Shown here in pieces: positions 223 through 38,281 of a stretch of 40,420 bases of DNA (position 1 is the stretch's first letter; each line of letters opens with the position of its first letter). The position numbers and the translations under genes are program-made. The notes below the pieces were generated by a model, which saw only the letters and a list, made by a program, of their open reading frames with translations, had not been told where the DNA came from and did not search any database. Source of the DNA: a virus; IMG/VR virus record IMGVR_UViG_3300005294_000055, positions 1 to 40,420 of that record; one strand, given 5' to 3'.

Positions 223-237
223 GTATAATGATTATAT
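223..237 (+). repeat. Dyad motif copy A (variant)
   Basis: GTATAATGATTATAT differs from the 15-mer GTATAATGAGTATAC at two positions, one of them in the right arm. It lies in the non-coding leader and contains a perfect TATAAT hexamer, but no -35-like box stands 16-18 bases upstream. Confidence 0.6.
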
Positions 238-736
238 GTGGTGTGGTAATTTGTGTGTTATAGGCGATTAAGGCATGGTTGTGCTGATGTGGTTGCGACA
301 ACCCGATTGCACACTCCGCATATTATTCGTTCTCTATTCGTACTAGAATGCATACCGCACAATCGCACAGCGCTGCGCATGGGAGTGGCATACGAGCGTC
401 AGCTAGTAGGGTAGCAGGCATACTCTAGAAACGCACAGGTGACGTTTTCATGTTTTGTTCTTTACCTCTCAAATAGCGTGCAAGTGACCATGCGTCACAT
501 AGTGTGCTTTATAGCATGCTAGCTAGTGCTCTAAGTAGCAATACACATAGCGTTGTGTCGCACCTGTAGTGCAGCGCATGCGTTGCTATTGCTGGCGTTG
601 TCATGGGTGCAACATGGCGCTTCGCTTACCCGGCAGGCCGCTTCAAGTCCGAAGCTGAAACAGGCGCGCGACCATCTCATTCGCACGGCGCGAGCAGTGC
701 TCAGCACCGGCGGCGGACGCGAGCATCTTGCGAGCG

Positions 737-753
737 GTTGTCCAAAGGACAAC
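737..753. other. 7-bp perfect hairpin in GC-rich patch
   Basis: GTTGTCC and GGACAAC pair perfectly around an AAA loop. It sits in a patch (about 620-830) with further inverted repeats: TAGCCT/AGGCTA just downstream, and GTAAGCGAAG (775-784) against CTTTGCTTAC (794-803) with one mismatch. The cluster suggests a structured RNA, or DNA acquired from elsewhere. No known RNA family is recognised. Confidence 0.4.
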
Positions 754-1004
754 ACAGCAAGGTATAGCCTGAGCGTAAGCGAAGGCTATTCCGCTTTGCT
801 TACTTAGTGTCTAGCGTAGTGAGATGTAGTGAGGTAGGTGGGAGGTAGTCCCCGGGTCAATCCCAAAGTGGAGTGCTAATGCTTGGCCGGTCTCAGCGGA
901 GAGAGCGCACTCACAAGCCCATATAAGATGTGAAAAAGATAAAAACCAAAACGCCAACGATGCACAGTGCTTAAGTACTCATACGAAATGAAATGAAAAG
1001 AAAA

Positions 1005-1036
1005 ACACCTCCTGCTATGTGAGTAACAGGAGGTGT
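1005..1036 (-). terminator. Rho-independent terminator, minus strand
   Basis: ACACCTCCTG (1005-1014) and CAGGAGGTGT (1027-1036) form a perfect 10-bp stem with a 12-base loop. Read on the minus strand the stem runs straight into a T-rich tract (TTTTTCTTTTC); on the plus strand no T tract follows. It would stop leftward transcription leaving the 1277 region, and so insulate the leftward early arm if the genome is circular. Confidence 0.7.
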
Positions 1037-1167
1037 AGTAGAAGGGCATGAGGATGCTAGAGTGGAGCGCCAGTTATAGCTTACTGTGTATATGATGTCA
1101 ACATGTGTAGAGCTATGTATGTGTGTATGCTAGCTTGTGTAGTAGAACAACCGGAGGCATACGCAGG

Positions 1168-1185
1168 CCGGCGCTTTCGCGCCGG
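1168..1185. other. GC hairpin with GNRA-type loop on minus strand
   Basis: CCGGCGC and GCGCCGG pair perfectly around a four-base loop, TTTC on plus and GAAA on minus. The minus-strand RNA would therefore carry a stable GAAA tetraloop. No T tract follows on either side, so it is not an obvious terminator. It lies 23 bases before motif copy B and 92 bases before the first rightward gene. Confidence 0.5.
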
Positions 1186-1207
1186 ATGTGTAATATCTCA
1201 ACTTGAC

Positions 1208-1222
1208 GTATAATGAGTATAC
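1208..1222 (+). repeat. Dyad motif copy B (exact 15-mer)
   Basis: GTATAATGAGTATAC, non-coding, 55 bases before the first rightward gene. TTGACG lies immediately upstream (1203-1208), too close to serve as the -35 of the TATAAT inside the motif. The position suggests an operator for the late rightward arm. Confidence 0.75.
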
Positions 1223-1276
1223 TGCTAGCCGACGAAGATAGTTGCAGATGTAACCATTGAACAAAAGGAGATCATC

Positions 1277-1693
1277 ATGCCCTCGTACAGTGGCTTGTTC
1301 GATGGTGTCCACGGTCAGCCTTATGCACCTATCAATGAAGCTGGTGCTGCTTCACGTGGTGTAGCTCGTCTCATGTCACCACAAGGTAATCTCGCATTCG
1401 CACGTGCTGCTGATGCGATGACGACTGCTGCAGCTATTGGTCTGCCTATTGCTAACGGCGGCTACACTCAAGTAGCAGCAGTGCAGGCTGATGGTATGAA
1501 CCAAGGTGGCTTGCGTCCGATCTCTACCTACACCTTTTTGAGTGGCAACGTGACTGCAACACAGCTTGCTCTCGTTGACAATCAACTCAATCCTCGCTTC
1601 ATGCCTGCTATGTCTGTTGCAGGTCAGGAGTGCAGTGGCTATCCCGTCGATAAGTCAGGAAACGGTGGTGGTAGCAAGGTCGGTACGCTCTAG
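1277..1693 (+). CDS. Hypothetical protein, first gene of the rightward arm
   Basis: 138 residues, not recognised. The ATG at 1277 is preceded by a clear ribosome site (AAAGGAG, about 8 bases away), so the start is firm. The protein is rich in Ala, Gly and Met with no membrane segment or signal peptide. The C-terminal region has two Cys-free Gly/Ser stretches after a single Cys (QECSGYPVDK) and ends in a Gly/Ser tail. It overlaps the next gene by one base and opens the operon that leads into the terminase genes. A head, packaging-associated or minor virion role is possible from position only. Motif copy B lies just upstream. Confidence 0.8.
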   Translation: MPSYSGLFDGVHGQPYAPINEAGAASRGVARLMSPQGNLAFARAADAMTTAAAIGLPIANGGYTQVAAVQADGMNQGGLRPISTYTFLSGNVTATQLALVDNQLNPRFMPAMSVAGQECSGYPVDKSGNGGGSKVGTL

Positions 1694-2733: not shown

Positions 2734-3386
2734 GCAGTGACACACCTACACATTTACCACTTGCAAATGGACTAATTATCGACACTGCCACAGGGCAGGC
2801 GATGGTCCCCAGCACGTCACCAGATGCTGTCATCGCGCAACAAGCCAAAGAGAAGAAAGCAACCACCAAACCTCCGCGTAGTCACCCTAGCAGTAATAGC
2901 ACTGTGCGTCGGGGCTTGGTTGATCTTCCTGCTGATCATCGAGCGGTTACTACAGTAGGCGTAGTGTGGCTGTACTTCACACTAGGCGTGACAGACGCAG
3001 AGATGGCTGAGGCCACTGGACTGCGTATCAGCCAGATCGAGATGATGAAGCAGATGCAGTTGTTCTCGCAGCTTGATGAGCTGTTGAAGAGCAATCTCGC
3101 ACAGCTTGCACATGCTGATGTACAACAGCGCATTGACAATGCAGCAGGTGATGCACTCGATGCTCTTGAAGTGATGCTGACTGATGAAGATGTCAAGCCT
3201 GCCACTCGCGCTCGCATCCTCATGAACATGCTCGACCGTGGTGGATTTGCTCCTAAGCAGATCATGGAGCACAAGCACTCACTTGAGGGTGGCTTGACTA
3301 TTCGACACATCAAAGACGTAGCACGTCCCAAGGACATGCCAACGATCAACGTGAAGGAGATTAACAATGGCTATCGTCCCGAATAA
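2730..3386 (+). CDS. Putative terminase small subunit
   Basis: 218 residues. The call rests on position, one short gene upstream of terL, and on a helix-turn-helix-like segment at about residues 80-107 (VTDAEMAEATGLRISQIEMM), followed by long charged helices (about 110-170) of the kind used for oligomerisation. The first ~60 residues are a polar, disordered-looking arm. In phages the small terminase binds the packaging site and feeds DNA to the large subunit. Similarity to a named family is not certain; another DNA-binding protein is possible. The ATG overlaps the previous stop (ATGA arrangement). Confidence 0.55.
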   Translation: MSSDTPTHLPLANGLIIDTATGQAMVPSTSPDAVIAQQAKEKKATTKPPRSHPSSNSTVRRGLVDLPADHRAVTTVGVVWLYFTLGVTDAEMAEATGLRISQIEMMKQMQLFSQLDELLKSNLAQLAHADVQQRIDNAAGDALDALEVMLTDEDVKPATRARILMNMLDRGGFAPKQIMEHKHSLEGGLTIRHIKDVARPKDMPTINVKEINNGYRPE

Positions 3387-3573
3387 AGACGGACAAGGCA
3401 TCCTCGCTAATGGAGCAGTTGGCATTGTCGATCCTTCTTACTGCTTGCCTACTACATATGGCACAGGTGTTCCATCTACTGTAGGCTATCCGGGTGAGCT
3501 ACGCACTGACACTGCAACAGGCAACATATACGTCAATCTCGGCGCTAACAGGTGGGCACTTCACCAGTGGTAG
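3367..3573 (+). CDS. Small hypothetical protein between terminase genes
   Basis: 68 residues. The start is firm: AAGGAG stands 8 bases before the ATG. It overlaps the gene before by 20 bases and the terL frame by up to 22. The sequence is Gly/Thr-rich, with a segment reading like a short beta structure near the end (TDTATGNIYVNLGANRW). Similar short pieces occur in phage fibre and head-decoration proteins, but no function is claimed. Confidence 0.65.
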   Translation: MAIVPNKDGQGILANGAVGIVDPSYCLPTTYGTGVPSTVGYPGELRTDTATGNIYVNLGANRWALHQW

Positions 3574-5165
3574 CACGACGCATAGCGCAAGGTGATGAAC
3601 GTCCTGAGTTTATCCTTAAGGAAGGATCACTTCAGGACTTGTTCATGCGTTCGTATGCGAAGGTGCAGCTATACGGAGGTGGCTTTGGTAATGGTAAGAC
3701 ATCAGCAGCAGTCATCAAAGCACTACACCTGTGTGAGTGGTATCCTGGCTCTACTGGTCTCATCGCTCGTTCTACGTATCCAAAGCTCAATGACACTATA
3801 AGAAAAGAGTTCCTCAAATGGTGTCCTAAGAACTGGATCAGAGCCTTCTCTACAGGACAGAACGGCGACAACATCTGTTACTTGAAGAATGGCACTTCTA
3901 TCTATTTCAGATACATCGCACAGCAGGGTGTGAAAGCAGAGAGCAGCTCCTCCAACTTGCTGTCTGCTACATTTGATTGGATCGTTGTAGATCAAGTCGA
4001 AGACCCTGAGATCACATATAAGGACTTCCTCGATTTGTTCGGCCGCTTGCGTGGTCGCACGCGCTACATAGGCGATGACCCCAACATGCCTATCACTGGC
4101 CCACGCACGATGATGCTCACGTGCAATCCAACTAGCAACTGGGTCTATACAAAGTTAGTAAGACCGTTGCATCTATACAAAGCGACGCACGCAATCACTG
4201 ACGACCTCCTCTGTGTACGTGACATCGACCGTCTACCAGTACTTCACGACGACAAGCCTCAGCTCATGCTCGAAGTTGTAGAAGGATCGACATATGAACT
4301 GCGACACGTGCATGAAGTTGATGGTGGTGACTTCATCCAAACCCTTGAGACGATGTACACAGGTCAACAACGTGACCGCTTTCTGCTTGGTGTGTGGGCG
4401 AGTTACGAAGGGCTTGTATATCCCCAATTCAATCTTGTCGGGCACACGCTACAGCAGGGCGATATCGAAGCGCTCCTTGACGGCTACTATAGAGACAATT
4501 ACAAACCCACGTGGATTGAAGGCTACGACTACGGTCAAGCTGTCCCGTCGTGCTACGCACTAGCGTTTGTCACACCAGACAATCACGTCATCATCTGCGA
4601 CGGCTTCTATCAGAAAGAGATGACGATTGATGATCAAGTTGGGCGTATAATCGCTATACGCAAACAGTGGCAGTGTGAGCTTGATGAGCTACACAAGATA
4701 TACGCCGACCCGTCGATCTTCGGTAGGAAGACAGTAGGCAAGCGCACTGTTGGTAAAACAGTTGCAGACATGTTCAAAGAAGATAACATCCACATGCGAC
4801 GTGGTAACAATGACATCAACAATGGCATCATCAAGGTCGGCGCTTATCTCAATGTTTCATCTCGTCTGCAACACCCAATTACCCGAGTGCCGGGATCACC
4901 GAGAATGTTCATCAATGCCGCACTCACGTGGTGGACAGACGAATGCGGTGGCTACTTCTGGCAGCAATCTACTGCAGGCGAACGCATTGACAAACCAGTT
5001 GATCGCAATGACCACGCAATGGACATGACGCGCTACTTGATGTCGCACATGCCAGAGATTGGCAGATATATAACACCGGCTGAAGAACGCATCCCATCCT
5101 ACATGCTGTGGCAGGAGAAAGACGCAGCATACAAGGACGATCCAAGGAAGCATCGCTATGGCTAG
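3552..5165 (+). CDS. terL: Terminase large subunit
   Basis: The packaging motor ATPase and nuclease, about 537 residues, normal for the family. The Walker A loop is GGFGNGKT with Lys49. The Walker B strand is WIVVDQVEDPEI at about residue 140, where Gln follows the Asp in place of the usual Glu. The C-terminal RNase H-like nuclease shows acidic motifs in order: GYDYGQ (about 325), YADPSIF (about 380) and NDHAMDMTRYL (about 493). The start is uncertain: GTG at 3552 lacks a ribosome site, while GTG at 3567 has AGGTGG 11 bases upstream. The gene overlaps the portal gene by 8 bases. It cuts concatemeric DNA and pumps it into the prohead through the portal. Confidence 0.93.
   Translation: MGTSPVVARRIAQGDERPEFILKEGSLQDLFMRSYAKVQLYGGGFGNGKTSAAVIKALHLCEWYPGSTGLIARSTYPKLNDTIRKEFLKWCPKNWIRAFSTGQNGDNICYLKNGTSIYFRYIAQQGVKAESSSSNLLSATFDWIVVDQVEDPEITYKDFLDLFGRLRGRTRYIGDDPNMPITGPRTMMLTCNPTSNWVYTKLVRPLHLYKATHAITDDLLCVRDIDRLPVLHDDKPQLMLEVVEGSTYELRHVHEVDGGDFIQTLETMYTGQQRDRFLLGVWASYEGLVYPQFNLVGHTLQQGDIEALLDGYYRDNYKPTWIEGYDYGQAVPSCYALAFVTPDNHVIICDGFYQKEMTIDDQVGRIIAIRKQWQCELDELHKIYADPSIFGRKTVGKRTVGKTVADMFKEDNIHMRRGNNDINNGIIKVGAYLNVSSRLQHPITRVPGSPRMFINAALTWWTDECGGYFWQQSTAGERIDKPVDRNDHAMDMTRYLMSHMPEIGRYITPAEERIPSYMLWQEKDAAYKDDPRKHRYG
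4645..4659 (+). repeat. Dyad motif copy C
   Basis: GTATAATCGCTATAC inside terL. Both arms are perfect and the centre is ATCGC. The same centre occurs in copy H, which overlaps a promoter. Confidence 0.65.
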
Positions 5166-11007: not shown

Positions 11008-11040
11008 GCTGCGCGCTATATATAAGGTGTGGAACAAACC

Positions 11041-11682
11041 ATGACCACATTTGGTGAGATTGTCACGAAGGTGTTGCAGCGACTATCGCTCGTTGAGGGC
11101 TTAGACGCACAGATATACGCAGAGCCTCGCATCCAGCTAGCTGTACAACACAAGTTCGATACGATGTTCAGGGAGTATTGGTGGCCTGAGTACACAACAT
11201 ATCAGGATGAGTATGTGCTCGATGGTAGCACTGGGAATATCACCGGCGATCTAACTGACAAGCTCAATGACTGGCGTGATCTACACAGCGTGCTGTCAGA
11301 GAACAGCAGCAAGCCACTTCCTATCTTGCCACTCAATACTCGTATAACGGATATACAAGCGCCGACCATTGTGTGGACTATCAGCAATCCGAGCAAGATG
11401 TTCTACATTGCACCTAAGACCACAAGTGGCAAGGTGTGGTTGACATATAGAACAAAGCCAAAGGACTTCGAGGAGGATCATGAAGTCATACTGCTCGATC
11501 CACAGTTGCTGATACTAGGCACATGCTGGGATATACTAGAAGACGACGGCACCAATCCGGGAGCGAGTGACAAGTTCAGAGGACTATATCAAGATCAAAT
11601 CAATCAATCCACGCGCATGTTCCACAACATGAAGCTCGACACTATGATGCCAAACCGCTCAGTCTCAACAAGGTGGTGGTAG
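11041..11682 (+). CDS. Tail tubular protein A-like / head-tail adaptor
   Basis: 213 residues from ATG 11041; a GTG at 11029 in frame is an alternative. AAGGTG lies 11 bases before the ATG. The size, the position before a very large tail protein and segments such as REYWWPEYTTYQDEYVLDGS fit the gp11-like gatekeeper/adaptor family of T7-type and other podophages. That family has helical arms and a beta barrel and joins the portal to the nozzle. The product would sit under the portal as a dodecameric ring and keep DNA inside. Motif copy D is inside the gene. Assignment is by context and general look, not by a diagnostic residue. Confidence 0.7.
   Translation: MTTFGEIVTKVLQRLSLVEGLDAQIYAEPRIQLAVQHKFDTMFREYWWPEYTTYQDEYVLDGSTGNITGDLTDKLNDWRDLHSVLSENSSKPLPILPLNTRITDIQAPTIVWTISNPSKMFYIAPKTTSGKVWLTYRTKPKDFEEDHEVILLDPQLLILGTCWDILEDDGTNPGASDKFRGLYQDQINQSTRMFHNMKLDTMMPNRSVSTRWW
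11342..11356 (+). repeat. Dyad motif copy D
   Basis: GTATAACGGATATAC in the tail tubular A-like gene. Both arms are perfect. The centre ACGGA is one base from copy I read on the minus strand (ACCGA). Confidence 0.6.
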
Positions 11683-20166: not shown

Positions 20167-20562
20167 ATGGCAGATCGCAGCAACGCTGTAATGGATAGCA
20201 TCATCGAGGACATGATGATGCAACAACAGCCTCTACAACAGCCAGCTATGCGATTTGTAACTGCTCCTGCATCTGCGCCTGCGCCTGAGTCTGTGCCTGT
20301 TGAACAGCTTCCTAGAAACTTCGTTCCTCCTAATGTTGCTACGAAGAGAAAGTTAGGTCCAACAGCACAGATGTGGGGACAAATAGCGAAGCAGATGTTC
20401 GCTGACTTTGAGAAGACACAAGGGAAGTATCCACTCACTCCACAAGTAGCAGCACAAGCGCAGCAGGAGGAAGGATTTCCACCAATGCAAGAGCAAGATG
20501 CAAGCGCAGTGTCGTTTGCAAATAGGTGGCCTCTTCAAGATGATGAACAGGTGCAGCAGTGA
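20167..20562 (+). CDS. Hypothetical Gln/Pro-rich protein
   Basis: 131 residues, not recognised. The N-terminal segment SNAVMDSIIEDMMMQQQ resembles the NMDSM/ITDFL-type start of the preceding protein in layout (acidic helix, then Pro/Ala-rich linker), so the two may do related jobs. A helical region at about 62-85 (QMWGQIAKQMFADFEKTQGK) is followed by a Gln-rich tail. Its stop overlaps the next ATG (TGATG). Confidence 0.65.
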   Translation: MADRSNAVMDSIIEDMMMQQQPLQQPAMRFVTAPASAPAPESVPVEQLPRNFVPPNVATKRKLGPTAQMWGQIAKQMFADFEKTQGKYPLTPQVAAQAQQEEGFPPMQEQDASAVSFANRWPLQDDEQVQQ

Positions 20563-21095
20563 TGCGCTATGTAGTACGGCAGCTAGACACGCCGAAGCAA
20601 GGTCATGAGCTTGAAGTGATAGCACGTATTCATCATGCTGAGACAGGTGGTAAGAGAGAGTTTCATGAAGACGGCGTGCTTGAGTATTGCAAGCGCTATG
20701 GGCCTCAACGTGTGCGCAGTGAATTGACGTGTTGGCTAGCGTATACTCATTATACAGAGGTCGAGAAAGAGCGCGAATGTGTTGGCTACTTGCTTGCTAA
20801 GATATCACAGCCTTATGGCTCAGTGCGTAGGTTCTCATATGTCGAACACGTCTATACATTGCCAGAGCATCGCAACATACTGGTGTTTTCAGCATTACTG
20901 CGCAAGTTTGATGAATGGTCGATGGAGAATAACTGCGAGAGGCAGCACCTGTGCGTCGAATACGACGATGATGAACTTGGTGCGCTGAAGCAGCTACGCT
21001 TGTATGAGAGACTTGGCTACAAACGATGCGGGTATATCACAGCGAAGTACGTGGACTATAGCAGCAACAGTGGAAACAAGGATGAAGTAGCATGA
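20562..21095 (+). CDS. GNAT-like N-acetyltransferase
   Basis: 177 residues from ATG 20562, overlapping the preceding stop. GNAT fold features include the central strand VGYLLAKIS, the strand YVEHVYTLPEHRNILVFSAL leading into the acetyl-CoA helix, and the C-terminal YERLGYKRCGY, the typical last 'YerlGF' strand. The classic Q/RxxGxG/A pyrophosphate loop is degenerate (HRNILVFSAL), so activity is unproven. It sits between virion genes, where it could modify a virion or host protein or ride in the particle. Motif copy E is inside this gene. Confidence 0.65.
   Translation: MRYVVRQLDTPKQGHELEVIARIHHAETGGKREFHEDGVLEYCKRYGPQRVRSELTCWLAYTHYTEVEKERECVGYLLAKISQPYGSVRRFSYVEHVYTLPEHRNILVFSALLRKFDEWSMENNCERQHLCVEYDDDELGALKQLRLYERLGYKRCGYITAKYVDYSSNSGNKDEVA
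20741..20755 (-). repeat. Dyad motif copy E (exact 15-mer, minus strand)
   Basis: Plus strand GTATACTCATTATAC, the exact complement of GTATAATGAGTATAC, inside the acetyltransferase gene. Confidence 0.7.
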
Positions 21096-23336: not shown

Positions 23337-24788
23337 ATGGCTGTCATACCGAGCGGCACATCTGAACCTTGGGGAATAATGGCACGTGAGGCGGCTGCGA
23401 ATGACGCACTCGCCAGATTGTTCGTGCAAGAGAACATGCGTCGAGAGATGCAACAGAACCAGTTCGGAGAGAATGCGACTAATCGCAACTGGAGAGGTGC
23501 TCAGCAGGACAAAGCACTGAGTTGGCAAGAGGCGAGACAAGATCGATCTCAGGCATTCACTGCGCAAGAGAACGAAGCGAATAGACGTAATGCAATGGAC
23601 ATGACGCAGTATCGTACTGATGCTGCTACTGCGCGTGCTGGCAATAAAGCAGGCAAGTATCAGGTCGTGTATGGCAATGATGTGCTGCAAGCGTGGAATG
23701 CAATTGAACAGAAGTACAAGATACCTCAAGGCTATCTGGCGACAATCATTGGTCCTGAGAGTGGAGGAGGTGCCAATCAAGTCAGTGCTACTTCATCAGC
23801 ACGAGGGCCTTTTCAATTCATCACAGGCACTGCTAATGAGATGGGACTTGGTGATAGATTTGATCCTATTAAAGCTGGCGAAGCTGCAGCTAAGTTGGCA
23901 GCACAGAATAGAGACTATGCGACGAAGATGAGCAATGGTGCTATCAGGTGGACAGGTGGTCCTCAAGATATCAGGCCACTATATATGCTGCATCAACAAG
24001 GTGGGCCGAATGGATGGAAGCTATTGCTGCCTGCCAATATGACGAGACAAGCTGTTTCAGTTGGACATCCAGCTAACTTGATGGCGAATGGTGTCACACC
24101 GAGCATGACTGTGCAGGATATGCATAACATGTGGGACAGAAAGCTGATCCCGTGGTTTCAGTCATATGGTGCGCGCATGACGCAGATAGGTGGTGGCAAT
24201 CCTCCTGCACCGGGAGCACCGCAGTATGCAGGACAACCACAGCCTCAGCAACCGCAACAGCAGCAACAGCCGCAGCCACAGCAGCAGCAACAGCCTGAAG
24301 GATGGGTGCCTGCTCCACAGTTTAGAGGACAGCCTCCTGTACAAGTACAGAGCACGCCAGCTACCAATCCGTCGCAGCCTGCTACAACACAGCAACCACA
24401 ACAACAACAGACACAGCCTCAACCGGGTAGAGGAAGTGTGCCTCCTTCAACCATCTCGCCGCAAGTGTTTGCTCAGCCGCCGAATGCGGTAGCTGGTGCA
24501 AGCGGTGCTGGTGCTCCGCTCCCGACGCAGGTAGGAGCACCAGCCACTGCTGCTCCTGCTCCTGTTAATCCGTATGCCTCATGGGGAGATGGAGCAGATA
24601 CATCGCAGCTAGGTGGTGCTGTGAATGTGCCTAGTTCGCAGACGACAGTAGTGACTGGAGCGCCAGCAGGAGCACTAGGTGATCGTGCTACTCCTTCTAC
24701 AGCAGCACCACCTCCTCCCGGCACGAGGAAGAAGGTTACTAAGTATATTGACGACGACGGTGTGCTGCGCTTCTCAGCTCCGCAGTAG
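23337..24788 (+). CDS. Internal virion lytic transglycosylase
   Basis: 483 residues. A soluble lytic transglycosylase (SLT, goose-lysozyme-like) domain spans about residues 115-250. The catalytic Glu is Glu141 in GPESGGG, followed by the SARGPFQFITGTANEMG substrate-groove motif and MLHQQGGPNGW. The first 110 residues are a charged helical region, and the part after 270 is Gln/Pro-rich (QQPQQQQQPQPQQQ) with a basic end. It would cut peptidoglycan glycan strands locally during DNA entry, like the transglycosylase domain of T7 gp16, but here it is a separate protein. Motif copy F begins at its last stop base. Confidence 0.85.
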   Translation: MAVIPSGTSEPWGIMAREAAANDALARLFVQENMRREMQQNQFGENATNRNWRGAQQDKALSWQEARQDRSQAFTAQENEANRRNAMDMTQYRTDAATARAGNKAGKYQVVYGNDVLQAWNAIEQKYKIPQGYLATIIGPESGGGANQVSATSSARGPFQFITGTANEMGLGDRFDPIKAGEAAAKLAAQNRDYATKMSNGAIRWTGGPQDIRPLYMLHQQGGPNGWKLLLPANMTRQAVSVGHPANLMANGVTPSMTVQDMHNMWDRKLIPWFQSYGARMTQIGGGNPPAPGAPQYAGQPQPQQPQQQQQPQPQQQQQPEGWVPAPQFRGQPPVQVQSTPATNPSQPATTQQPQQQQTQPQPGRGSVPPSTISPQVFAQPPNAVAGASGAGAPLPTQVGAPATAAPAPVNPYASWGDGADTSQLGGAVNVPSSQTTVVTGAPAGALGDRATPSTAAPPPPGTRKKVTKYIDDDGVLRFSAPQ

Positions 24789-24802
24789 TATAATGAGTAT
24801 AC
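24788..24802 (+). repeat. Dyad motif copy F (exact 15-mer) before the giant virion gene
   Basis: GTATAATGAGTATAC begins on the last base of the transglycosylase stop codon and ends three bases before the next ATG (24806). No normal Shine-Dalgarno sequence is visible there; only GAG within the motif could serve. As RNA it could form a 5-bp hairpin with AUGAG in the loop. Confidence 0.75.
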
Positions 24803-27800: not shown

Positions 27801-29203
27801 AAGCGGGACTGCCTTATCTGCAGCAGATGCGCGCAGGTACTTACTACATGTTGAAGAACCTACAGTTCGACTCTCCTAATGCGCTGCCAGTGTGGGCACG
27901 TCTTACTACATTGACGATGGGTGTAGCACAGGGGCATCTGATGATGCTCAACTGGGATGAGGAGTCGAAGAAGTACTGGGCCAACATGCCGGGGTGGGAT
28001 CGTTATAGGAAGGTGGCTGTTCCTACATTCGCAACTGCGATGGCATGGGCACGTGGTGAGACTGTGAAGTTCAGTCCTGATAAAGTGTGGATGTTGCCAC
28101 TTGCACCTGATATAGCGCCGGTCATTGCAGGTAGTGTGTACATGTTGCAACAAATGGGACTGGTGCCAAGTGATGCTGCACCTGTATCTCTCGGCACTGA
28201 AGTACCAAAGGTGTTCTTCGATGCAATGACACCAATGATGCCACCCGGTGTACAGGCTGCATTAGGTGCAATGGGCGCTAAGTTAGACCCGCAAGGTGCA
28301 GATGTGCGAGGTGGCAATTGGTTGCGCACTAGTACGAGTGCATTCAGAAAGGGACCGGGTGCAGAGGCGCAAAGTAATTTAGGGGAGGTGTCGCAGTCCA
28401 CTGCGTTGATACTGTCTGGGCTATTCGGTGCGAATGGAGCATACTTGCAGACTGCACTAGATGTCGGCATGCACGCAATGAAGTATCACCCTGAACCGAA
28501 TGCACAAGGTGAGGTGACACAGAAGGCCAATCCTGAGTTTATGAAGGGCTTAGGTGCTGCAATGTCTACAATGGGCAGTCAGGTGTTTGAGCCTAAGACT
28601 GATGTCTTCCCATTGTGGCAGCGTGGTGAGAAGTACTACAAGTCAACACCTGCATGGGAGCATGCAACAGAAGGCAAGAGGCATATAGAGAACATATCGG
28701 GGATGAGAGATGAAGTTGGCAAGACAGGTGTTGCTGGTAGGATCGGCACTGCAGAAGCGGGTGGCATGCCTACTCCGTCGCTACAGGACCAGACGCTTAT
28801 CTCGATTGCTCAAGAGGTGTATGCCTTCAATAGACCGAATGGTGATCTAGGTAGGCTCAAGGGTGCTTACACGGAGTTAGCTAAACAGCAGCGTGGATTT
28901 CAAGTGCAATATAATAAGCCGTACAAGTGGAGACGTGAGCAGGAGAATGAAGTTATTAAGAAGATGCAAGATAACATGCAGCAGCAACAGTTGGCTATCA
29001 TGTGGTTGGAAGGTGATATAGCTGACAACTATGGACAGGTGCTGCAGCCTATCATGCAAGGTCGTGAGATTACAGTTGAGACATTAGATGATGTACTGAG
29101 AGAGGCAAGAGGGAAGACTGCTGCTATTCAGCCAGTAGTCAACCCTCAAGCCAATGCTCCTCTCAGTGTACCAAGTCGTGGTGTGGTGCCACGTGGCAGA
29201 TAG
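24806..29203 (+). CDS. Giant internal virion protein
   Basis: 1465 residues, the largest product and the last rightward gene. Its position after the transglycosylase, its size and its composition fit the large internal core/ejection proteins of podophages. Helical coiled-coil segments are visible at about 440-520 (EINELTGKIGRTQNPTYLAK; ELADKTAEQTRLRGDLRAHR). Hydrophobic Ala/Gly stretches occur near 270-295 (VGAAASIAIATGATALIANA). A region around ARWAKANTTGVFQPLFAFTN (about 765) resembles modules found in large polyvalent phage proteins. I see no transglycosylase, protease or RNA polymerase motif. It probably forms the periplasmic part of the DNA channel. The start lacks a good ribosome site and is overlaid by motif F. 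Confidence 0.75.
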   Translation: MADEQGLTKEQFIKQYGYDPEPEAVAEARPSKPPSYSVSQIPRDLAVGALTAIPDLYGAIDTVPAAVRGGYNWITGGEGGFGGKVQERIFKPGFQENIQKHIEEQALKWQQTDPTLTNDELNELAGQYQKTRAFEDFTNSQQTHFASTASEWKAGVRRFLGDTRTDEQRSWANDIGEVAGGALLGGPSGLVTRAGATGIGKAIAGSAINNVVTRGGLRVAEALTPVTMPYTPANVMTNFVIGSGIDTAAKMASGKPNMITGGSELVQPDHEDPAGVGAAASIAIATGATALIANALRGKIKGGLPHDLEQTLPHTSVPSGMPQPPTGGIGNKILNEVPQPPRGQEGIAAGPDIPSEPVPMLPTIQPKTTGFFERMNNALNDEFSVTGAVLEAVKGSRIAQSMDMLFSDLTGARLIDKAVKEADRLTGRLLEIRESMLPEAQAKLNTLLHHVGVWGKRTQLDFEIEQEINELTGKIGRTQNPTYLAKLQQELADKTAEQTRLRGDLRAHRPWLQDVSAVDADTARLALENATDPVTVEIRDLLKRVGKESLDLAVKSGKMKQSYADLLHDLNPYYIHLKKDRLEGATGWNRVWMGLKLKAKEAFKTDTENAGAVNPTHQAPLYALRDTVPESSAAPRINNALDPLTSLHDYVRQMYIDYGHTTLRNNILGHLLYNGAQPSALMQGNHARIWQHPEESGKTWFSAAQIRTDPAIQKAMYDDKYLPRWQGGRMQLVHLGDTDITAALRQFSPTWNTMMKILWTEPARWAKANTTGVFQPLFAFTNMYMDAVMTTFRQSNRAFGSINTAAFKYLPEGAAKTINAIAFDPTALVNLHWYMAKGLMNVAAFHMAPRIARTLGQTPGLNAFAAAVGQQNWQVMVRRMLDAAANSHAMYLTDRGAMHSSSYSPGDIGKMQAAVDDFKLTHAVVPPMLRAGFQAFSDLLGAIHSAPKLMFYSQNYSILKRKYGNNIPQAELDKLVHETANLAGDMSRKPGSKVMQGVEAGLPYLQQMRAGTYYMLKNLQFDSPNALPVWARLTTLTMGVAQGHLMMLNWDEESKKYWANMPGWDRYRKVAVPTFATAMAWARGETVKFSPDKVWMLPLAPDIAPVIAGSVYMLQQMGLVPSDAAPVSLGTEVPKVFFDAMTPMMPPGVQAALGAMGAKLDPQGADVRGGNWLRTSTSAFRKGPGAEAQSNLGEVSQSTALILSGLFGANGAYLQTALDVGMHAMKYHPEPNAQGEVTQKANPEFMKGLGAAMSTMGSQVFEPKTDVFPLWQRGEKYYKSTPAWEHATEGKRHIENISGMRDEVGKTGVAGRIGTAEAGGMPTPSLQDQTLISIAQEVYAFNRPNGDLGRLKGAYTELAKQQRGFQVQYNKPYKWRREQENEVIKKMQDNMQQQQLAIMWLEGDIADNYGQVLQPIMQGREITVETLDDVLREARGKTAAIQPVVNPQANAPLSVPSRGVVPRGR

Positions 29204-29371: not shown

Positions 29372-31900
29372 CTAGAGTTCAGACTTCTTCATCTTCTTGA
29401 TCGTAGACCAGCGGTGTGTGCCGTCTGCATCTGGCACTGACATGCCGATCTCAGCAGGAATGATTAGCTGCCGTGTCTTCCTGTCAACACCTACGATGTT
29501 GAGCGGTGTCTCTGCGTGTTTGATAAGCACGCGCAACGCCTGACGAGCGACTGACTTGTGAGCTAGACCTATCAAACCATCGTGCGTGTTGAGCGCGATG
29601 CGTGCCTTGCCCTTTGGGAACTTGTCATCATCGTGAGACTTGTATATAACACGACACACGTGATCTCCGATTGTGGACTGGTGATAGAAAGCTACAATGC
29701 TTTCAGTTGTCTCGTCTGTGATCGGTGCGAACTGGTAGTAGCGCCGACCGTATGCGTTGTAGATTGCACGCTTGCTCTTGATGAGGTCTAGGTCATGTTG
29801 CCAGCCCTTCTTAATCTCAGGAGAGAGTCGGTGGTACTTCACGAACGCTTCAGTAGCAGTAGCAAGTGGCAAGCCTGTCGTGAGAGCAAGACGATCAGGC
29901 ATCATCCGGTAGTTCAGCCCATGACGACAGCGTTTCGCGATATAGCGAATGGTAGGTTGCCCAGCGAGTGCAGCATTGTACTCGATGCCATCACGCAGAG
30001 CGGCTGCTTCATCCAATGCGTAACGGTCGAAGGACGGCACTTGGTTGTAAGGTGTGTCGAACATGTCGGCAGCGAGAGCACGGTGCGCATCGTACTTCCC
30101 ATCGATGCGAGCCTTCTCGAATTGCTGCATCCACGTGTCGATGACGTAGCGCCAGCCGACTACTCGAGCTTCAGCTTGAGACCCGTCGATGTAGATGAAG
30201 ACGTAGTCAGGGTCGGTGATGAACATCGACTTCGCCCGGTCAGGGATGTTCTGCAAGTTGCCTCCTGATCCCCACAATGTTTGAGCTGATGATAGACGGC
30301 CCGGAGCATTTTTCACTCCTGTTTGTCTATAGTCACAGCGCATACGTTGATCATAATCAGGACGTGCAGATGCGTAGACACTATAGAACTTGTGATCAGC
30401 AGAGTACTCATCGACAGCACGCAAGATGCGCTTTGCAGCGTCAGATGTTCGGGGATGTTTGTACATCAGACGACGATTTTCTGCATCAGTGGATGTACCT
30501 CTACCCACAAGGCGCAGACGACTGAAGTACAAGTCGCTCATCTGCTTAGGTGAGTTAGGATTAGGGCGGTAGTACTCGTCACCTACTGCGTCTTTGATAG
30601 CAGCATACAACGAGCCGAGCTTCTTCTGTAGATCGTCGTATAGGTTGCCTTCCCTGTCCTCAGCGAGCATGTCTTCACGCAGTGACATGTCATTGAGCAC
30701 ACCACCGACAGTCATACGCACGAGGTGAGCTTGCAAGCGCATGACGTGTTCGAAGTAGAACGCGTCGAGTCCTTGCTCTTTCAGCTCTCTTCTCAAGTGT
30801 ATGTCGGATGCCAGTGTAAGTGCGCAATCTCGACAGTTGTATTGCCAAAAGTTATCGACGCCCCCGGTGTGACGCCACTCATCTTTCTCGTCTTTGTAAT
30901 AGGCATGAGTCGTATACTGCTTGACGATGAAGCCGAGGTCATGCGGCATTGGGGGATAGAGAACATGATGAGCCAGCATCGTGTCTGAGTACGCTGGCTT
31001 AGTATAGATGCGATCTTTGAACCAGAGCCAAGAGGCATCGAACCCTCCATTCTGCCACACTAGTTTGGTGCGTGGTGCTGTGTAGAAGCGCTGTAGTTTG
31101 CGACGGATGTATAGCTCATCAGCTACACTGTAGACGTGCTCTGTCTCACTGCGGAATGGGATACACATCGCGTCGTGTGGTGTGAGAGCAAGACCGACGC
31201 AGGCTGTCTCATTGCTGATGACCTCGATATCACTTGCAACTGGGTGGATGGATGCAGTACAAGCGTCGATGTAGTCGCATGCTTCCTTCAGAGTGGGGTT
31301 GATATGTGTAGTAATTGTATACTCGCTATACCGCCCTTCGACCACAGGCTGCAGCTTATCTCCGAGGTCCATATCAAGGATGCTGTGCTGCAGTGGATCG
31401 TGGAGGCAGGCGGCAGCGTTGACTACACATACAGCGGTCAGTATCTTATTCTCAAGCGGCATAGGCAGAACACTACCACGCCACTTGAGAGCACCCTTCT
31501 TACCGAGGCAGGCTTCAATAGCCATGCCGCCCATTAGTAGCACGTGCTTCAGATTTGGAAGGAGAGATAACTCCCACAGGAGGAGGGCTTGCCAGCTTGC
31601 AAGCTCCTGCTTGCTTACGGGTCTCTTGTTGCCAAGCTCAAACGCTATCTGGCGCTTGACTACGTTGGTGACATACACGTCTTGGCGTTTGATAGTGGGA
31701 CACGTGCGACGAAGTGATGTCCACAGCAAGCTGCCACTTGCACCTACGAGTGGTAGTCCTTGTGCTACTTCACTACGACCGGGTGCTTCTGCAATCACTG
31801 CAAGCGTTGCATTCATCGTGCCTGACATTGCACATTCGACTGAGAGTCCTGCAGTCTGAGCGTGGCGAGTGAACATCTCGCGTAGTTCAGCAGTGTTCAT
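29372..31900 (-). CDS. DNA polymerase, family A, with N-terminal UDG-like domain
   Basis: 842 residues. The start chosen is ATG 31900 (GGAGGG upstream, ATGA overlap with the gene before). The N-terminal domain (about 30-190) matches family 4 uracil-DNA glycosylase: AEAPGRSE at 37-44, then LPLVGASGSLLW. The usual four iron-sulfur cysteines are not obvious. The 3'-5' exonuclease has DIE (224-226), NGGFD and YNCRD. Polymerase motif A is DGSQAEAR with Asp572, motif B is KRCRHGLNYRM and motif C is HDG with Asp774. In the O helix His660 stands where Phe or Tyr is usual, and Arg replaces the Gly after Tyr. A similar UDG-polymerase fusion is known from phage SPO1. It is the replicative enzyme of the phage. 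Confidence 0.93.
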   Translation of the reverse strand: MNTAELREMFTRHAQTAGLSVECAMSGTMNATLAVIAEAPGRSEVAQGLPLVGASGSLLWTSLRRTCPTIKRQDVYVTNVVKRQIAFELGNKRPVSKQELASWQALLLWELSLLPNLKHVLLMGGMAIEACLGKKGALKWRGSVLPMPLENKILTAVCVVNAAACLHDPLQHSILDMDLGDKLQPVVEGRYSEYTITTHINPTLKEACDYIDACTASIHPVASDIEVISNETACVGLALTPHDAMCIPFRSETEHVYSVADELYIRRKLQRFYTAPRTKLVWQNGGFDASWLWFKDRIYTKPAYSDTMLAHHVLYPPMPHDLGFIVKQYTTHAYYKDEKDEWRHTGGVDNFWQYNCRDCALTLASDIHLRRELKEQGLDAFYFEHVMRLQAHLVRMTVGGVLNDMSLREDMLAEDREGNLYDDLQKKLGSLYAAIKDAVGDEYYRPNPNSPKQMSDLYFSRLRLVGRGTSTDAENRRLMYKHPRTSDAAKRILRAVDEYSADHKFYSVYASARPDYDQRMRCDYRQTGVKNAPGRLSSAQTLWGSGGNLQNIPDRAKSMFITDPDYVFIYIDGSQAEARVVGWRYVIDTWMQQFEKARIDGKYDAHRALAADMFDTPYNQVPSFDRYALDEAAALRDGIEYNAALAGQPTIRYIAKRCRHGLNYRMMPDRLALTTGLPLATATEAFVKYHRLSPEIKKGWQHDLDLIKSKRAIYNAYGRRYYQFAPITDETTESIVAFYHQSTIGDHVCRVIYKSHDDDKFPKGKARIALNTHDGLIGLAHKSVARQALRVLIKHAETPLNIVGVDRKTRQLIIPAEIGMSVPDADGTHRWSTIKKMKKSEL
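31317..31331 (-). repeat. Dyad motif copy G
   Basis: Minus strand GTATAGCGAGTATAC, inside the DNA polymerase gene. The arms are perfect; two bases differ from the exact 15-mer. Confidence 0.65.
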
Positions 31901-32408: not shown

Positions 32409-33785
32409 CTACTTCTTCAACTGCGATGTGAGCTTGTTCTTTGGCTTGAAGCCTAGCGATTTGAGTGAGACTGCAAGTGCTCGCTGATCTGTGATGATGT
32501 CCACATGTGAGTGAGCACGTGTGATGCCTGTGTAGAAGTTAGGTCGCGACAGGTTGAAGAAGGCACATGATGCCATGAGATAGGTGACGTGTGAGTACTC
32601 GCTACCTTGGCACTTGTGAGTGGTGAGTGCGTAAGCGAGGTCGATAGCTTTGCGTGGGTCATAGACGATGTGGCGCTTGTAGCGCATGCTATAGTCAGAG
32701 ATCAGTGGTGGTAGTTCTACAGTGCGATCACCGAAGTCGATCTCTAGTGTGCCAGCTTCGTCGATGCTGAGGATGATGCCGACTTCGCCATTGAGCATCT
32801 GCTTTGTCTCAGGAGGTGGTATGTAGGAGGCAGAGAAGCCAACAGGGTTGCCGAACTCGTCTTCACGAAACTCAGTGTAGCGTTCTTCATAGTCGCGTAG
32901 GTCGTATGAGTTGACAGTGCATACGACTTTGTCACCTTCAGCCACGTAGAGCTTGTTCTTCTGCTCCCACTTGTTGCGTGGTAGCTCTGTGCGATTGAGC
33001 ATTGCAGTGTTGTAGCGTGCTTGCAGCACACCGTTGAGACGGACGGTGCCGATGTCTGTCTTGCGAGCTGGTGATATGATCTGGTTGTCGAGAGACTTCC
33101 AGTCGATGTCAGATGTGTCGAGCATCTTATAGAGCATGTGCAGCACTGCATCATGGACGTGTAGCTTGGCATCTCCGTTGCTTGTGAAGAACTGTCCCTT
33201 GTTGATGCGTCTTGCTGCTTCAATGATGCCATTGCCTTCTGCTTGGCGATAGATGTTGTGAAGCTCGATGCTGTTGGGCATCTGCAAGCAGCGTGTGAAT
33301 GGTGATGTTGTGTCGGCTAGCTCGTTGTTCTCAATCGGCGGGAGCTGTCGCACATCACCGAATGTGCGCAAGCAAGCGCCTGGTCGCATAGCACTGACGA
33401 GGTTACGGTGCAGACCAGTGTGGACCATTGCATACTCATCAACAATGATCACCATCTCATTGAGCGGATTACCACGCACACGGTTAGGACCACTTTCTGA
33501 AGTGGCCTCACCTGTTTCTTCGTCAATGTCAGGGCGATTGTATTCGAGCAGCTTGTGTAGTGTGCTAGCGTGGTAGCCTGTAGCTTCACGAATGCGCCTA
33601 GCTGCCTTGCCTGTGGGTGCAGCTATTGCGAATGACACACCAGCGTCAGCGAGCAGATCGCATGTGTGCTTGATGATTGTAGTCTTGCCTGTGCCTGCTT
33701 CACCTGTCACTGCGACTAGTCGTTTGCTAGTGTCAGCACATAGCTCAACAGCGCGCACTTGCTCTGCGTCGAGAGAGATCGTCAT
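32409..33785 (-). CDS. Superfamily 1 helicase, Dda/RecD-like
   Basis: 458 residues, close to T4 Dda in size. SF1B helicase motifs appear in order: Walker A GEAGTGKTT (28-36, Lys34), Ia PTGKAARRI, Walker B VIIVDEYAMV (about 113-122), III FGDVRQLPP (about 143), a later THKCQGSEYSHV and VI YTGITRAHSHVDII near the C-terminus. It would unwind DNA 5' to 3' using ATP, and start or restart replication or recombination with the neighbouring polymerase. It has its own promoter 35-65 bases upstream. The SLDAEQVRAV start is the typical Q motif. Confidence 0.92.
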   Translation of the reverse strand: MTISLDAEQVRAVELCADTSKRLVAVTGEAGTGKTTIIKHTCDLLADAGVSFAIAAPTGKAARRIREATGYHASTLHKLLEYNRPDIDEETGEATSESGPNRVRGNPLNEMVIIVDEYAMVHTGLHRNLVSAMRPGACLRTFGDVRQLPPIENNELADTTSPFTRCLQMPNSIELHNIYRQAEGNGIIEAARRINKGQFFTSNGDAKLHVHDAVLHMLYKMLDTSDIDWKSLDNQIISPARKTDIGTVRLNGVLQARYNTAMLNRTELPRNKWEQKNKLYVAEGDKVVCTVNSYDLRDYEERYTEFREDEFGNPVGFSASYIPPPETKQMLNGEVGIILSIDEAGTLEIDFGDRTVELPPLISDYSMRYKRHIVYDPRKAIDLAYALTTHKCQGSEYSHVTYLMASCAFFNLSRPNFYTGITRAHSHVDIITDQRALAVSLKSLGFKPKNKLTSQLKK

Positions 33786-33811: not shown

Positions 33812-33826
33812 ATATAGCGATTATAC
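33812..33826 (-). repeat. Dyad motif copy H (variant, on promoter)
   Basis: Minus strand GTATAATCGCTATAT: one arm is perfect and the other has one change. Its TATAAT is the -10 box of the helicase promoter, so a bound protein would block RNA polymerase. Confidence 0.6.
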
Positions 33827-33849: not shown

Positions 33850-33850
33850 A

Positions 33851-33910: not shown

Positions 33911-34213
33911 TTAGTTTGACGTGTCGCTCGAGTCGCCGTTATCACCACCGCGCGGTTCGCTCGTCATCTCGTACTTGATGCGCGTGAGACCGAGGTTCGC
34001 GTAGTCAGGAGTGTCGAGGAACTCCACAACTTTACGCGCGTCGGACATGATGCGATCCACGTGCAACTGTGCTCCGGGGATGACGTTGCCCTGTGCATCG
34101 AGGACTTTGACGAAGAAGTGGAACGTGCGCTTCTGCGCCTGTCTGGCTGCAATCTTCTTCTTTGCAGCCGCACCAAATGTGGAGGAGGAAGACGTAGCTG
34201 GCTTGGTAGCCAT
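33911..34213 (-). CDS. Hypothetical protein, Ser-rich N-terminus and acidic tail
   Basis: 100 residues from ATG 34213, which has ATGAGG 10 bases upstream; an ATG at 34225 is less likely because it is part of that ribosome site. A basic, Ser/Ala/Lys-rich N-terminus (about 1-30) leads into a beta-rich core (RTFHFFVKVLDAQGNVIPGA, about 30-49) and a short acidic Gly/Asp/Ser tail (about 86-100). An acidic tail after a beta core recalls single-strand binding proteins, but the core is short and I do not assign it. It lies between the DUF669-like gene and the helicase. Confidence 0.7.
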   Translation of the reverse strand: MATKPATSSSSTFGAAAKKKIAARQAQKRTFHFFVKVLDAQGNVIPGAQLHVDRIMSDARKVVEFLDTPDYANLGLTRIKYEMTSEPRGGDNGDSSDTSN

Positions 34214-34286
34214 ATGATACCTCATTGAGAGTTAGGGATGAAAGTGAGCAGCCGTGAAGCTGCTCACTTGTTGTAGCATGGAGATG

Positions 34287-34694: not shown

Positions 34695-34723
34695 TGTAGT
34701 ATACCTCATGCTTTGCTGTTATT

Positions 34724-34784: not shown

Positions 34785-34809
34785 ACTTCTGTAGTAGCAC
34801 TAGATGTAG

Positions 34810-35604
34810 CTACTTCGGAAGCTGTAATTTCTTGTGACCATCTGTAGTGTAGATGTGCCACCAGTTTGCGAGCGTCTGTCCTTCGTCTTTGTTCGCGTTG
34901 TAGAACCACGTGAAGGAGGTGGCAGATGTCATGTCGAACATACGTGACTTCATAGGAGAGCGCAGACGTTCAGGTCTGATAGCGATAGTGCGTTTGCCAT
35001 TCTGATCACGCATGTGCCACACTTCGCTGATGTCTTTACTCGTCACGTTAGGTAGCTGTCCACCTAGCATCATCTTCACACTCACGACGCGACCTTGATC
35101 GTCTACGTCGCCGTCGCGCTCATGTGTTATCAAGATCAAGTGCTTGTTCAGCCTGCCAGTGATACGCAGCAAGTTGCTTATAAGAGAACCAACGTAGCTG
35201 TTGCGTAGACCATAGCCAGAGATGCCCGGTGCTTCGTAGGTAGCACGGAAGCGAGCACTCGACGCTTGAGGTTGAGTGACGGCGTAGCGCAGTGCAATCT
35301 CACTGAACTTGGTGAGTGAGTCGAAGATGAGAGTGTCATAGTTCCCGAGTATATCGGTTATACCAAATGGGTCGATGTCATTAGCCCTACGCATGATCTC
35401 GCTGGGTGTGTTGTTGGCGAAGTTGATACGAAACCAGTTAGGCATGTGTCGGATTGACATGTCGCCGTCTGGGTCGAACAGTAGTATGAGCTTCTTGCCC
35501 GGTGCAGTAGCTGCGAGTGTGGTCTTGCCACAGCCACTCTCGCCCCAGAGGATCATAGTCAGACGCGATAGAGCGTCGGTTGGTTGTTCTATCTTTATTT
35601 CCAC
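34810..35604 (-). CDS. RecA-fold ATPase, Sak4-like recombinase
   Basis: 264 residues, starting with GTG at 35604 after GAGGAGATGACTT; an ATG upstream in another frame stops after four codons. Walker A is GESGCGKTTL (21-30, Lys27) and Walker B is YDTLIFDSLTKF (about 89-100). A later LNKHLILITHERD fits the sensor strand of the AAA_24/Sak4 group. Sak4 proteins are phage single-strand annealing or strand-exchange ATPases that work with a single-strand binding protein; the DUF669-like gene follows at once. It would support recombination-dependent replication and repair. Confidence 0.8.
   Translation of the reverse strand: MEIKIEQPTDALSRLTMILWGESGCGKTTLAATAPGKKLILLFDPDGDMSIRHMPNWFRINFANNTPSEIMRRANDIDPFGITDILGNYDTLIFDSLTKFSEIALRYAVTQPQASSARFRATYEAPGISGYGLRNSYVGSLISNLLRITGRLNKHLILITHERDGDVDDQGRVVSVKMMLGGQLPNVTSKDISEVWHMRDQNGKRTIAIRPERLRSPMKSRMFDMTSATSFTWFYNANKDEGQTLANWWHIYTTDGHKKLQLPK
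35349..35363 (-). repeat. Dyad motif copy I
   Basis: Minus strand GTATAACCGATATAC, inside the Sak4-like gene. Both arms are perfect; it is one base different from copy D. Confidence 0.6.
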
Positions 35605-35618
35605 AAGTCATCTCCTCA

Positions 35619-36820: not shown

Positions 36821-37086
36821 CAGTGGATGTCCTCTGATGCTTCGTTGTCAGGATGATGCTTGCGTTGTAGCTCAGCCCACTCGCGGCGCAGCTTGACACC
36901 AACAGTGGAGATGTCAGCTACGATGTCTGCCATCTTGTCGGTGAGAGTGATGATTTGCTTCATCTCTTGACGCAGCATCTCGTTGTCTTCAGCTAGGCGT
37001 TCAAGCATTATGGTGACGCCCTTCTCCAAGCCGTGAGCACGTAGTGTATGGCGCACATCGCGAGCGCGTTGGACATACTCGACCAT
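36820..37086 (-). CDS. Small coiled-coil hypothetical protein
   Basis: 88 residues from ATG 37086, two bases after the preceding stop, with CAGGAACAT upstream. Longer starts would overlap the upstream gene. Helical throughout, with Met/Glu/Leu-rich heptads (MLERLAEDNEMLRQEMKQII, about 27-46). No family is recognised. It is coupled to the nuclease gene by a one-base overlap. Confidence 0.7.
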   Translation of the reverse strand: MVEYVQRARDVRHTLRAHGLEKGVTIMLERLAEDNEMLRQEMKQIITLTDKMADIVADISTVGVKLRREWAELQRKHHPDNEASEDIH

Positions 37087-37088
37087 CG

Positions 37089-37439
37089 TTATGTTCCTGT
37101 CTTGAATAGGTTGGTTGCTGTTAGTGGATCGTCGCATGAGAGGTCGTCAATGAGCTGTTGCGGTGTATAATGAGTATACACTGAGTTGTCGTTGCCCTGT
37201 CTGACGAGGAGTGTTTGCGTGCTGATTGCGTAGTTGATAGTACGACTGAACCAACGGAAGCCGACGTTACCTGTGCGATGGTCATGCCAGCCTCCTCGGG
37301 CATTGCGGCTGGCATGTAGTGCCATGAGGATGCGTGGCATGTCGAGGAGGATGCGACGTTGTGCTCTTATCTGGTATTCACGTCGCTTGGCTGCGAGTGT
37401 TGCCTTTCTGGCCTTACCAAGTGGGTATTCGGTAGGCAT
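37089..37439 (-). CDS. Hypothetical basic protein
   Basis: 116 residues. The ATG at 37439 has GAGGACTAC upstream. The N-terminus is very basic and helical (KARKATLAAKRREYQIRAQR, about 9-28), suggesting nucleic-acid contact. The centre has a Trp/Gly-rich turn (NARGGWHDHRTGNVGFRWFS), and the end is polar. No family is recognised. Motif copy J lies within it. Confidence 0.65.
   Translation of the reverse strand: MPTEYPLGKARKATLAAKRREYQIRAQRRILLDMPRILMALHASRNARGGWHDHRTGNVGFRWFSRTINYAISTQTLLVRQGNDNSVYTHYTPQQLIDDLSCDDPLTATNLFKTGT
37165..37179 (+). repeat. Dyad motif copy J (exact 15-mer)
   Basis: GTATAATGAGTATAC inside a leftward hypothetical gene, where the minus strand encodes VYTHYT. Confidence 0.7.
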
Positions 37440-37451
37440 GTGGTGTAGTCC

Positions 37452-37838
37452 TCATGTTGGAGGAACGTTTGTGTATTGGAGCTGCATAGCTCGTAGATCG
37501 CGGACGAGTAGCTCGAAGCGTTCAAGCGCTTTGTCTGTTGCAGCAAGTGCGCGCTCTGCAGCAGTGATCTTGCGCTCCATTCTATCACGCTGTGAGATCA
37601 ACGTTGTATGTACGCGAGCTTCGCCTGCTTGCTTGAGAGCTTTAGCAGCTTTCATACGACGCTCGCGCAGTTGGATGATGAACTGTTGCAGCTCGAGGTC
37701 TGTCATCTGCAGCAGTGATTTAGGTGTGACGACGTAGTCAGTAGACGCAGTTAGAGGCTGCGCAGCTAGTTGCTGCACAGCCCCTTTCGTCTTGAGCCTG
37801 ACGACGTTTGTTGCCTGCTTGTCGTCGGGCGCATTCAT
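37452..37838 (-). CDS. Coiled-coil hypothetical protein
   Basis: 128 residues. The start is ATG 37838, which shares one base with the preceding stop (TGATG); a longer frame would overlap the preceding gene completely. The central and C-terminal part (about 50-120) is a long charged helix (LQQFIIQLRERRMKAAKALK; RMERKITAAERALAATDKAL). The N-terminal ~40 residues are polar. No family is recognised. It is one of several short helical proteins in the early operon. Confidence 0.7.
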   Translation of the reverse strand: MNAPDDKQATNVVRLKTKGAVQQLAAQPLTASTDYVVTPKSLLQMTDLELQQFIIQLRERRMKAAKALKQAGEARVHTTLISQRDRMERKITAAERALAATDKALERFELLVRDLRAMQLQYTNVPPT

Positions 37839-38281
37839 CAAGCGACCTCTTGCTTCTTCACAAGCGGAATGGCTTTGATGATAGTTGCTGGAGTGGAGAG
37901 CTTCTCCACCTTCGCAATGCACTCATCGATGAGATCGACCTTGACGCCACGACGCACGAGTTCTGTGCGAAGCTCATCTACACTGACGCGTTTGGACGGC
38001 GTGTTGGCGTTGAACTCGATACGCCAATCTACGCCATCTGTATAATCAGTATACTTCTTCATGTACGACGTTGCACGAGAACGAACTAGACCAATGGTCA
38101 GTTCGTTGTTCTCCATGATATTTCCCTTCGCGTCGTCGTAGCGAGCGTTCGCATTGCTACGCAGTAACTCAGCAGTGTACAGCTCTGCTGCCATCTGGTC
38201 GACTGCATCTTGTGTAGTGCGCACACCTGAGAACCCTTTGATTGCTTCAGATGCACGTTGCTCGACTGATTTAGTAGCCAT
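37838..38281 (-). CDS. Hypothetical protein, first of the mid early operon
   Basis: 147 residues. ATG at 38281 has GAGGAGCTAAAGAG upstream. An extended -10 promoter lies 36-63 bases before it. Mixed alpha/beta: a helical N-terminus (about 1-55), then DWRIEFNANTPSKRVSVDEL and a helix with RRGVKVDLIDECIAKVEK. Not recognised. Motif copy K lies inside. Confidence 0.7.
   Translation of the reverse strand: MATKSVEQRASEAIKGFSGVRTTQDAVDQMAAELYTAELLRSNANARYDDAKGNIMENNELTIGLVRSRATSYMKKYTDYTDGVDWRIEFNANTPSKRVSVDELRTELVRRGVKVDLIDECIAKVEKLSTPATIIKAIPLVKKQEVA
38040..38054 (+). repeat. Dyad motif copy K
   Basis: GTATAATCAGTATAC, one base from the exact 15-mer, with perfect arms, inside the preceding early gene. 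Confidence 0.7.

Follow-up and report, generated by a model that had tools for sequence, protein, structure and literature searches.

A dyad motif selected as DNA recurs throughout the genomes of a family of uncultured podovirus-like phages

Organization of the window and of related genomes

The window, meaning the whole stretch of 40,420 bases analysed here, is an incomplete podovirus-like virus record (40.4 kb). Genes encoding TerL, portal, capsid, tail fibre, transglycosylase, PolA, a Dda/RecD2-like helicase, a Sak4-like protein, an exonuclease and HNH proteins were recognised in it. Late genes are carried by the + strand and early genes by the - strand, and the two arms converge near 29.2 kb. 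The late arm opens with a gene of family F10 (1277..1693, +), located immediately 3' of a putative late promoter, and the terminase large subunit is encoded at 3552..5165 (+). Neither tRNA genes nor Rfam families were found in the window, and matches to cultured phages were remote only.

TerL and capsid searches yielded about 120 loci. The relatives G011 and G015, as well as the more distant G027, measure 44-46 kb and feature the same 127 bp at start and end, as is consistent with complete circular assemblies. Since these three genomes are apparently complete, the window is probably about 4 kb short, lacking a segment that includes the early genes F17, F30 (DUF932), F36 and F33. The missing early genes of the window's species were sought via the 15-mer described below, and the same species alone was returned.

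Dyad sites in the window

The pattern GTATA-N5-TATAC occurs in the window as nine perfect and two near-perfect sites, about one per 4 kb. A perfect dyad (GTATAATGAGTATAC; 1208..1222, +) occupies the spacer between the -35 and -10 of the putative late promoter. Others are located within the terminase gene (4645..4659, +), within gene 11029-11682, which encodes 217 aa (11342..11356, +), and within gene 20559-21095 (20741..20755, with an ATGAG centre on the - strand). The dyad at 24788..24802 (+) has a stop-site-start arrangement, as the stop codon of gene 23337-24788 is followed by the site and by the start codon at 24806. The remaining perfect copies are found within the genes of the PolA-type DNA polymerase (31317..31331) and the Sak4-like protein (35349..35363), within the early ORF 37089-37439 (37165..37179, +) and within the early gene 37838-38281 (38040..38054, +). 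On recount, all nine were at the coordinates assigned to them by the first-pass annotation, and the two sites that it listed as variants are each a one-mismatch copy: GTATAATGATTATAT (223..237, +) lies in the early/late divergent region, and ATATAGCGATTATAC (33812..33826) lies between 33911-34225 and 32409-33785, directly upstream of the start of the latter. Four copies had been described as one identical 15-mer, and so they are (1208, 24788 and 37165 on the + strand, 20741 on the - strand).

When spacers of 0 to 20 bases were scanned in the window, GTATA-Nk-TATAC occurred solely at k=5, and no other 5-bp dyad exceeded three copies. Perfect sites averaged 0.02 in 300 Markov shuffles, with a maximum of one. 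The 11 sites score 15.9-24.8 with a weight matrix, all other positions 9.4 or below. Codon-preserving shuffles, which had been suggested earlier as a check, were also run: eight sites were observed within called genes, against a mean of 0.34 and a maximum of 2 in 200 shuffles. Sites exceeded codon shuffles in all eight core-bearing genomes tested. The remark that coding copies encode Y-T/S-x-Y-T or I-T-D-I does not hold in general, the terminase copy reading R-I-I-A-I-R.

Dyad sites in related phages

Two TerL loci are near-identical to that of the window, and both have the window's sites. The core TATA-N5-TATA was found in about 40 relatives, with 2-26 sites per record and flanking and inner letters that are specific to each lineage: GTATACTGAGTATAC in G012 and G031, TATACAATGTATA in G014, TATACACTGTATA in G006 and G017, TATACAACGTATA in G015 and G045. 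Apart from the two near-identical loci, the relatives (TerL about 70-75% identical) keep this core but mostly in the form TATAC-N3-GTATA, of which the window has zero copies. Different palindromes are hosted by the distant relative G026 (L087-L089; GTACACGTGTAC, five perfect copies) and by the more distant G027 (TTACACGTGTAA); a 10-mer of the G026 palindrome, ACACGTGTAC, is present in 17 copies over 43 kb. The close relative G029 (capsid 93%) has no sites. Site letters diverge between lineages as if they were following a changing binder.

A remote podovirus of 44.4 kb, Desulfofustis phage LS06-2018-MD01 (OP947158, L282), carries nine copies of an unrelated palindrome with the core GTCCCAA-N-TTGGGAC, several with longer arms, at 249, 2251, 7688, 15474, 23059, 29970, 37113, 41281 and 42977. 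The spacing of the interior copies is unusually even (p=0.0026). Regular spacing was dismissed as a general rule, not being evident from the site positions in the window's family.

Placement, orientation and selection

Among 282 sites, 108 are not fully coding. By our own, approximate gene calls, noncoding DNA accounts for 3.6% of the total, which corresponds to a roughly 16-fold enrichment between genes. The typical intergenic order is stop codon, site, ribosome-binding site; in co-directional gaps the site centre is mostly 6-19 nt past the upstream stop, and often 20-35 nt ahead of the next start. Coding sites are 4.5-fold denser in early than in late genes (3.84 and 0.85 per 10 kb, respectively). 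Sites with symmetric centres show no orientation bias relative to transcription, and those with AnC centres a minor one, in early genes only. The description of the sites as lying in coding and noncoding DNA and in both orientations was borne out, no overall orientation being apparent.

The dyad in the terminase gene occupies a single alignment column, at which 31 genomes have a site. The encoded residues vary (AIRRIR, SIRRIR, RIRSIR, RIIAIR) while the dyad is kept; the copies in the window (GTATAATCGCTATAC) and in G012 (GTATACGCAGTATAC) have the letters of their respective lineages. In the second half of the site, a synonymous ATC is found in G014 and G016. The site-free G029 retains AIRRIR, but the codons GCC ATT CGT CGT ATA break the dyad synonymously. 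Other coding positions with a site are common to up to nine genomes. The same terminase codons bearing the dyad under changing residues, the lineage letters and the synonymous loss in G029 mean that the sites are selected as DNA, as the first-pass annotation had thought more likely than selection on protein.

The putative late promoter

In the early/late divergent region, a G+C-rich hairpin followed by TTGAC-N15-TGN-TANNNN is conserved 5' of the first late gene. Judging from an alignment of 18 distinct promoter sequences upstream of this same gene, the TTGAC-N15-TGN-TANNNN element is a putative late promoter. In the window the hairpin is CCGGCGC-TTTC-GCGCCGG (1168..1185, +), and most relatives have an equivalent, CCGGCCCTTCGGGCCGG or a sequence like it. 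The putative -35 is TTGACG (1203..1208, +), its last G being the first base of the dyad, and the putative extended -10 is TGC TAGCCG (1223..1231, +), with a 17-bp spacer.

A site with a perfect core is present in 10 of the 18 late promoters, starting from -47 to +5 relative to the -35 start, and a one-mismatch site is present at -27 in two more. Six promoters have none, so the site is not essential for the promoter. The offsets (+5, -15 to -19, -26/-27, -47) are about 10.5 bp apart (R=0.81), with p=0.0005 in a helical-phase test over the ten promoters and p=0.05 over five position classes. Direct contact with the polymerase, by a repressor or an activator, is hence possible; an initial view, that the offsets are unphased and the binder accordingly a repressor, was weakened by this test.

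By eye, a leftward promoter-like TTGCAT-N16-TATACT recurs in the divergent region 5' of 1277 and in its counterparts in relatives, followed by T-run hairpins that look like terminators. Their arrangement suggests an early leader transcript.

Search for the binding protein

The statement that no repressor is recognised in the window agrees with our searches, in a record without about 4 kb of early genes. Neither the window nor the early genes scanned from two relatives yielded a recognisable HTH or repressor family. ParA, ParB and MatP homologues were not recognised in the window, the early genes of relatives being partly scanned, and no integrase, parABS or other lysogeny genes were found among the proteins scanned from the incomplete record. 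Candidates from the relatives fared no better. F17, the first early gene, is divergent and present in relatives whose divergent region is covered, but also in the site-free G029; a fold search with its AlphaFold model returned nothing significant. F30 (DUF932) is absent from the incomplete G029 record, and the fold search of its model was negative. Both were set aside. The similarity of site letters correlates best with that of F26 (r=0.75) and F30 (r=0.67), phylogeny not being controlled, and a comparison of site letters with protein divergence pointed to no clear winner.

Nature of the dyads

The dyads are genuine and under selection as DNA; they are concentrated in the gaps between genes and occur at the putative late promoter. 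At a probability of about 0.5, they are best read as the targets of a single sequence-specific DNA-binding protein, probably a dimer, that would regulate transcription genome-wide. This reading is supported by the unique spacer, copy number, excess over codon shuffles, core shared among relatives, terminase column, intergenic enrichment, late-promoter sites and early density. The putative dimeric regulator would bind an operator at the late promoter and, in the window, stand there in the way of RNA polymerase. Its other sites lie at gene boundaries and within genes, most densely in the early arm, and might act as roadblocks or set expression locally. We infer that the dimeric protein exists, is phage-encoded and represses rather than activates. 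The reading is weakened by the failure to recognise a repressor or HTH protein among the window and relatives' early genes searched and by the models of two early candidates, which matched no known fold; by the six of 18 late promoters free of sites; and by the many sites within genes, far from promoters. As to repression in particular, a repressor would have no evident purpose where no lysogeny genes were recognised, and the helical phasing of the late-promoter offsets would also suit an activator.

An activator or enhancer protein, contacting RNA polymerase both at the late promoter and at internal promoters that escaped detection, would account for that phasing. In the window, however, a dimer bound within the promoter spacer should clash with polymerase; six promoters built alike are site-free; and the next start codon follows most intergenic sites at about 20-35 bp, too close for a promoter to fit between. 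Such a role is rather unlikely. Slightly better placed, though still unlikely, are distributed partition or nucleoid-organising sites of the kind known as plasmid KorB or ParB sites, N15 centromeres or MatP matS; the protein on them would spread along DNA or bridge it, and any effect on transcription would be secondary. The matS and KorB sites are likewise 13-bp palindromes, and the occurrence of the dyads in coding and noncoding DNA of both arms, with no overall orientation relative to transcription, fits this function, as do the nine palindromes, evenly spaced in the interior, of the Desulfofustis phage. The window, however, gave no recognisable homologue of ParA, ParB or MatP, and neither the 4.5-fold higher early coding density nor the recurrent late-promoter site is needed for such a function. 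The role in replication or nucleoid binding that the first-pass annotation named as an alternative keeps some probability.

The binder could also be a host regulator or nucleoid protein, the lineage letters then reflecting different hosts. In favour of this, no phage gene could be linked to the sites, but a close relative, G029, is site-free and the site letters differ between members of a single phage family. Both facts fit the loss or divergence of a phage gene at least as well, and a host binder is considered improbable. That the dyads are RNA hairpins, serving as processing, translation or termination elements, is suggested by their being inverted repeats that often follow a stop codon and precede the next ribosome-binding site. 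A stem of five mostly A-U pairs closed by a 5-nt loop would be weak, however. Only 9% of the window sites are complementary at the first inner pair, complementarity of the outer pair across relatives is no higher than the null, and the second inner pair, which a hairpin loop could not use, does tend to complementarity. Inner and outer pairs so unlike a stem favour a protein on DNA and make RNA hairpins highly improbable. Production of the dyads by chance, base composition or protein constraint might be thought of in view of the many copies in coding DNA; chance and codon constraint were rejected by the dinucleotide, Markov and codon-preserving shuffles, and with the dyad kept while residues change the probability of this origin is negligible.

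Comparison with known repeats

KorB operators of plasmid RK2, the N15 centromere sites and the matS sites of MatP are short palindromes scattered over a replicon. The dyads of the present family are spread in the same manner, but they recur at the putative late promoter, and no ParA, ParB or MatP proteins were recognised in the window.

The stoperators of L5-like (Cluster A) mycobacteriophages are scattered genome-wide, including a promoter and the short gaps between genes, and their consensus differs between related phages (PMC6550527). Each is a 13-mer without symmetry that points along transcription and is bound by the monomeric two-domain repressor of temperate phages (PMC6550527, PMC9283540), and the operator promoter is the early one (PMC6550527). 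The resemblance to them that had been proposed holds in part, as a reading of the sites as operators plus roadblocks fits. The window's family similarly has many sites (11, and up to 26 in relatives), several in short gaps with the stop-site-start geometry, and a consensus varying between related phages; the window also has a site at a promoter, but at a putative late one, inferred from conservation only. In contrast, its sites are dyads without overall orientation, found also within genes, and no lysogeny genes were recognised among the proteins scanned. Given these differences in symmetry and orientation, the dyads were not filed as L5-type stoperators. Rather tentatively, they may be a symmetric, dimer-type counterpart, independently evolved in apparently lytic uncultured podoviruses, the fold of their regulator being unlike any recognised one and its specificity having diverged repeatedly, with some 10-25 sites per genome following.

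Many copies of a short repeat are known also from the T1-like phages T1, Stevie and TLS, which are lytic; these repeats are mostly intergenic, 22 bp long, asymmetric and transcription-oriented, and their function is unexplained (PMC4319613, PMC11447400). The window's sites differ in being symmetric 13-15-bp dyads, found also in genes. Genome-wide operator networks have been established mainly in temperate Cluster A phages, whereas the repeats of lytic phages have been recorded but not explained. The present family offers dozens of genomes, site letters that differ by lineage, a relative naturally free of sites and a late promoter that is conserved. The binder and its effect on transcription are therefore testable in it, and it would also show the joint change in specificity of a regulator and many sites.

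Other features of the phages

Some proteins of these phages deserve mention. F36 (L077:10976-11926 and relatives, A2) is a well conserved early protein, with a mean column identity of 65% and no match in cultured phages. The 1465-aa protein encoded at 24806-29203, beside the transglycosylase gene, is about 30-33% identical to its family counterparts and has no PHROG or Pfam match. The early protein of 425 aa encoded at 39028-40305 (PHROG 8203) has relatives in Pseudomonas Yuavirus-type phages, and its G017 homologue weakly matches a sacsin-like ATP-binding domain.

A host search in bacterial genomes yielded no host, its one hit being a phage-like contig from a metagenome bin. Phage proteins ending in a PEP-CTERM-like sorting signal are encoded by G014 (L072:17957-18697) and G020 (L082:2699-3466), both judged by eye only, by G029 (L169:9883-10758), just below the cut-off of the NCBIfam VPLPA-CTERM model, and by G017 (L077:9873-10685), which passes it (28.3 against 25.35 bits). 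Such proteins hint at an exosortase-bearing host.
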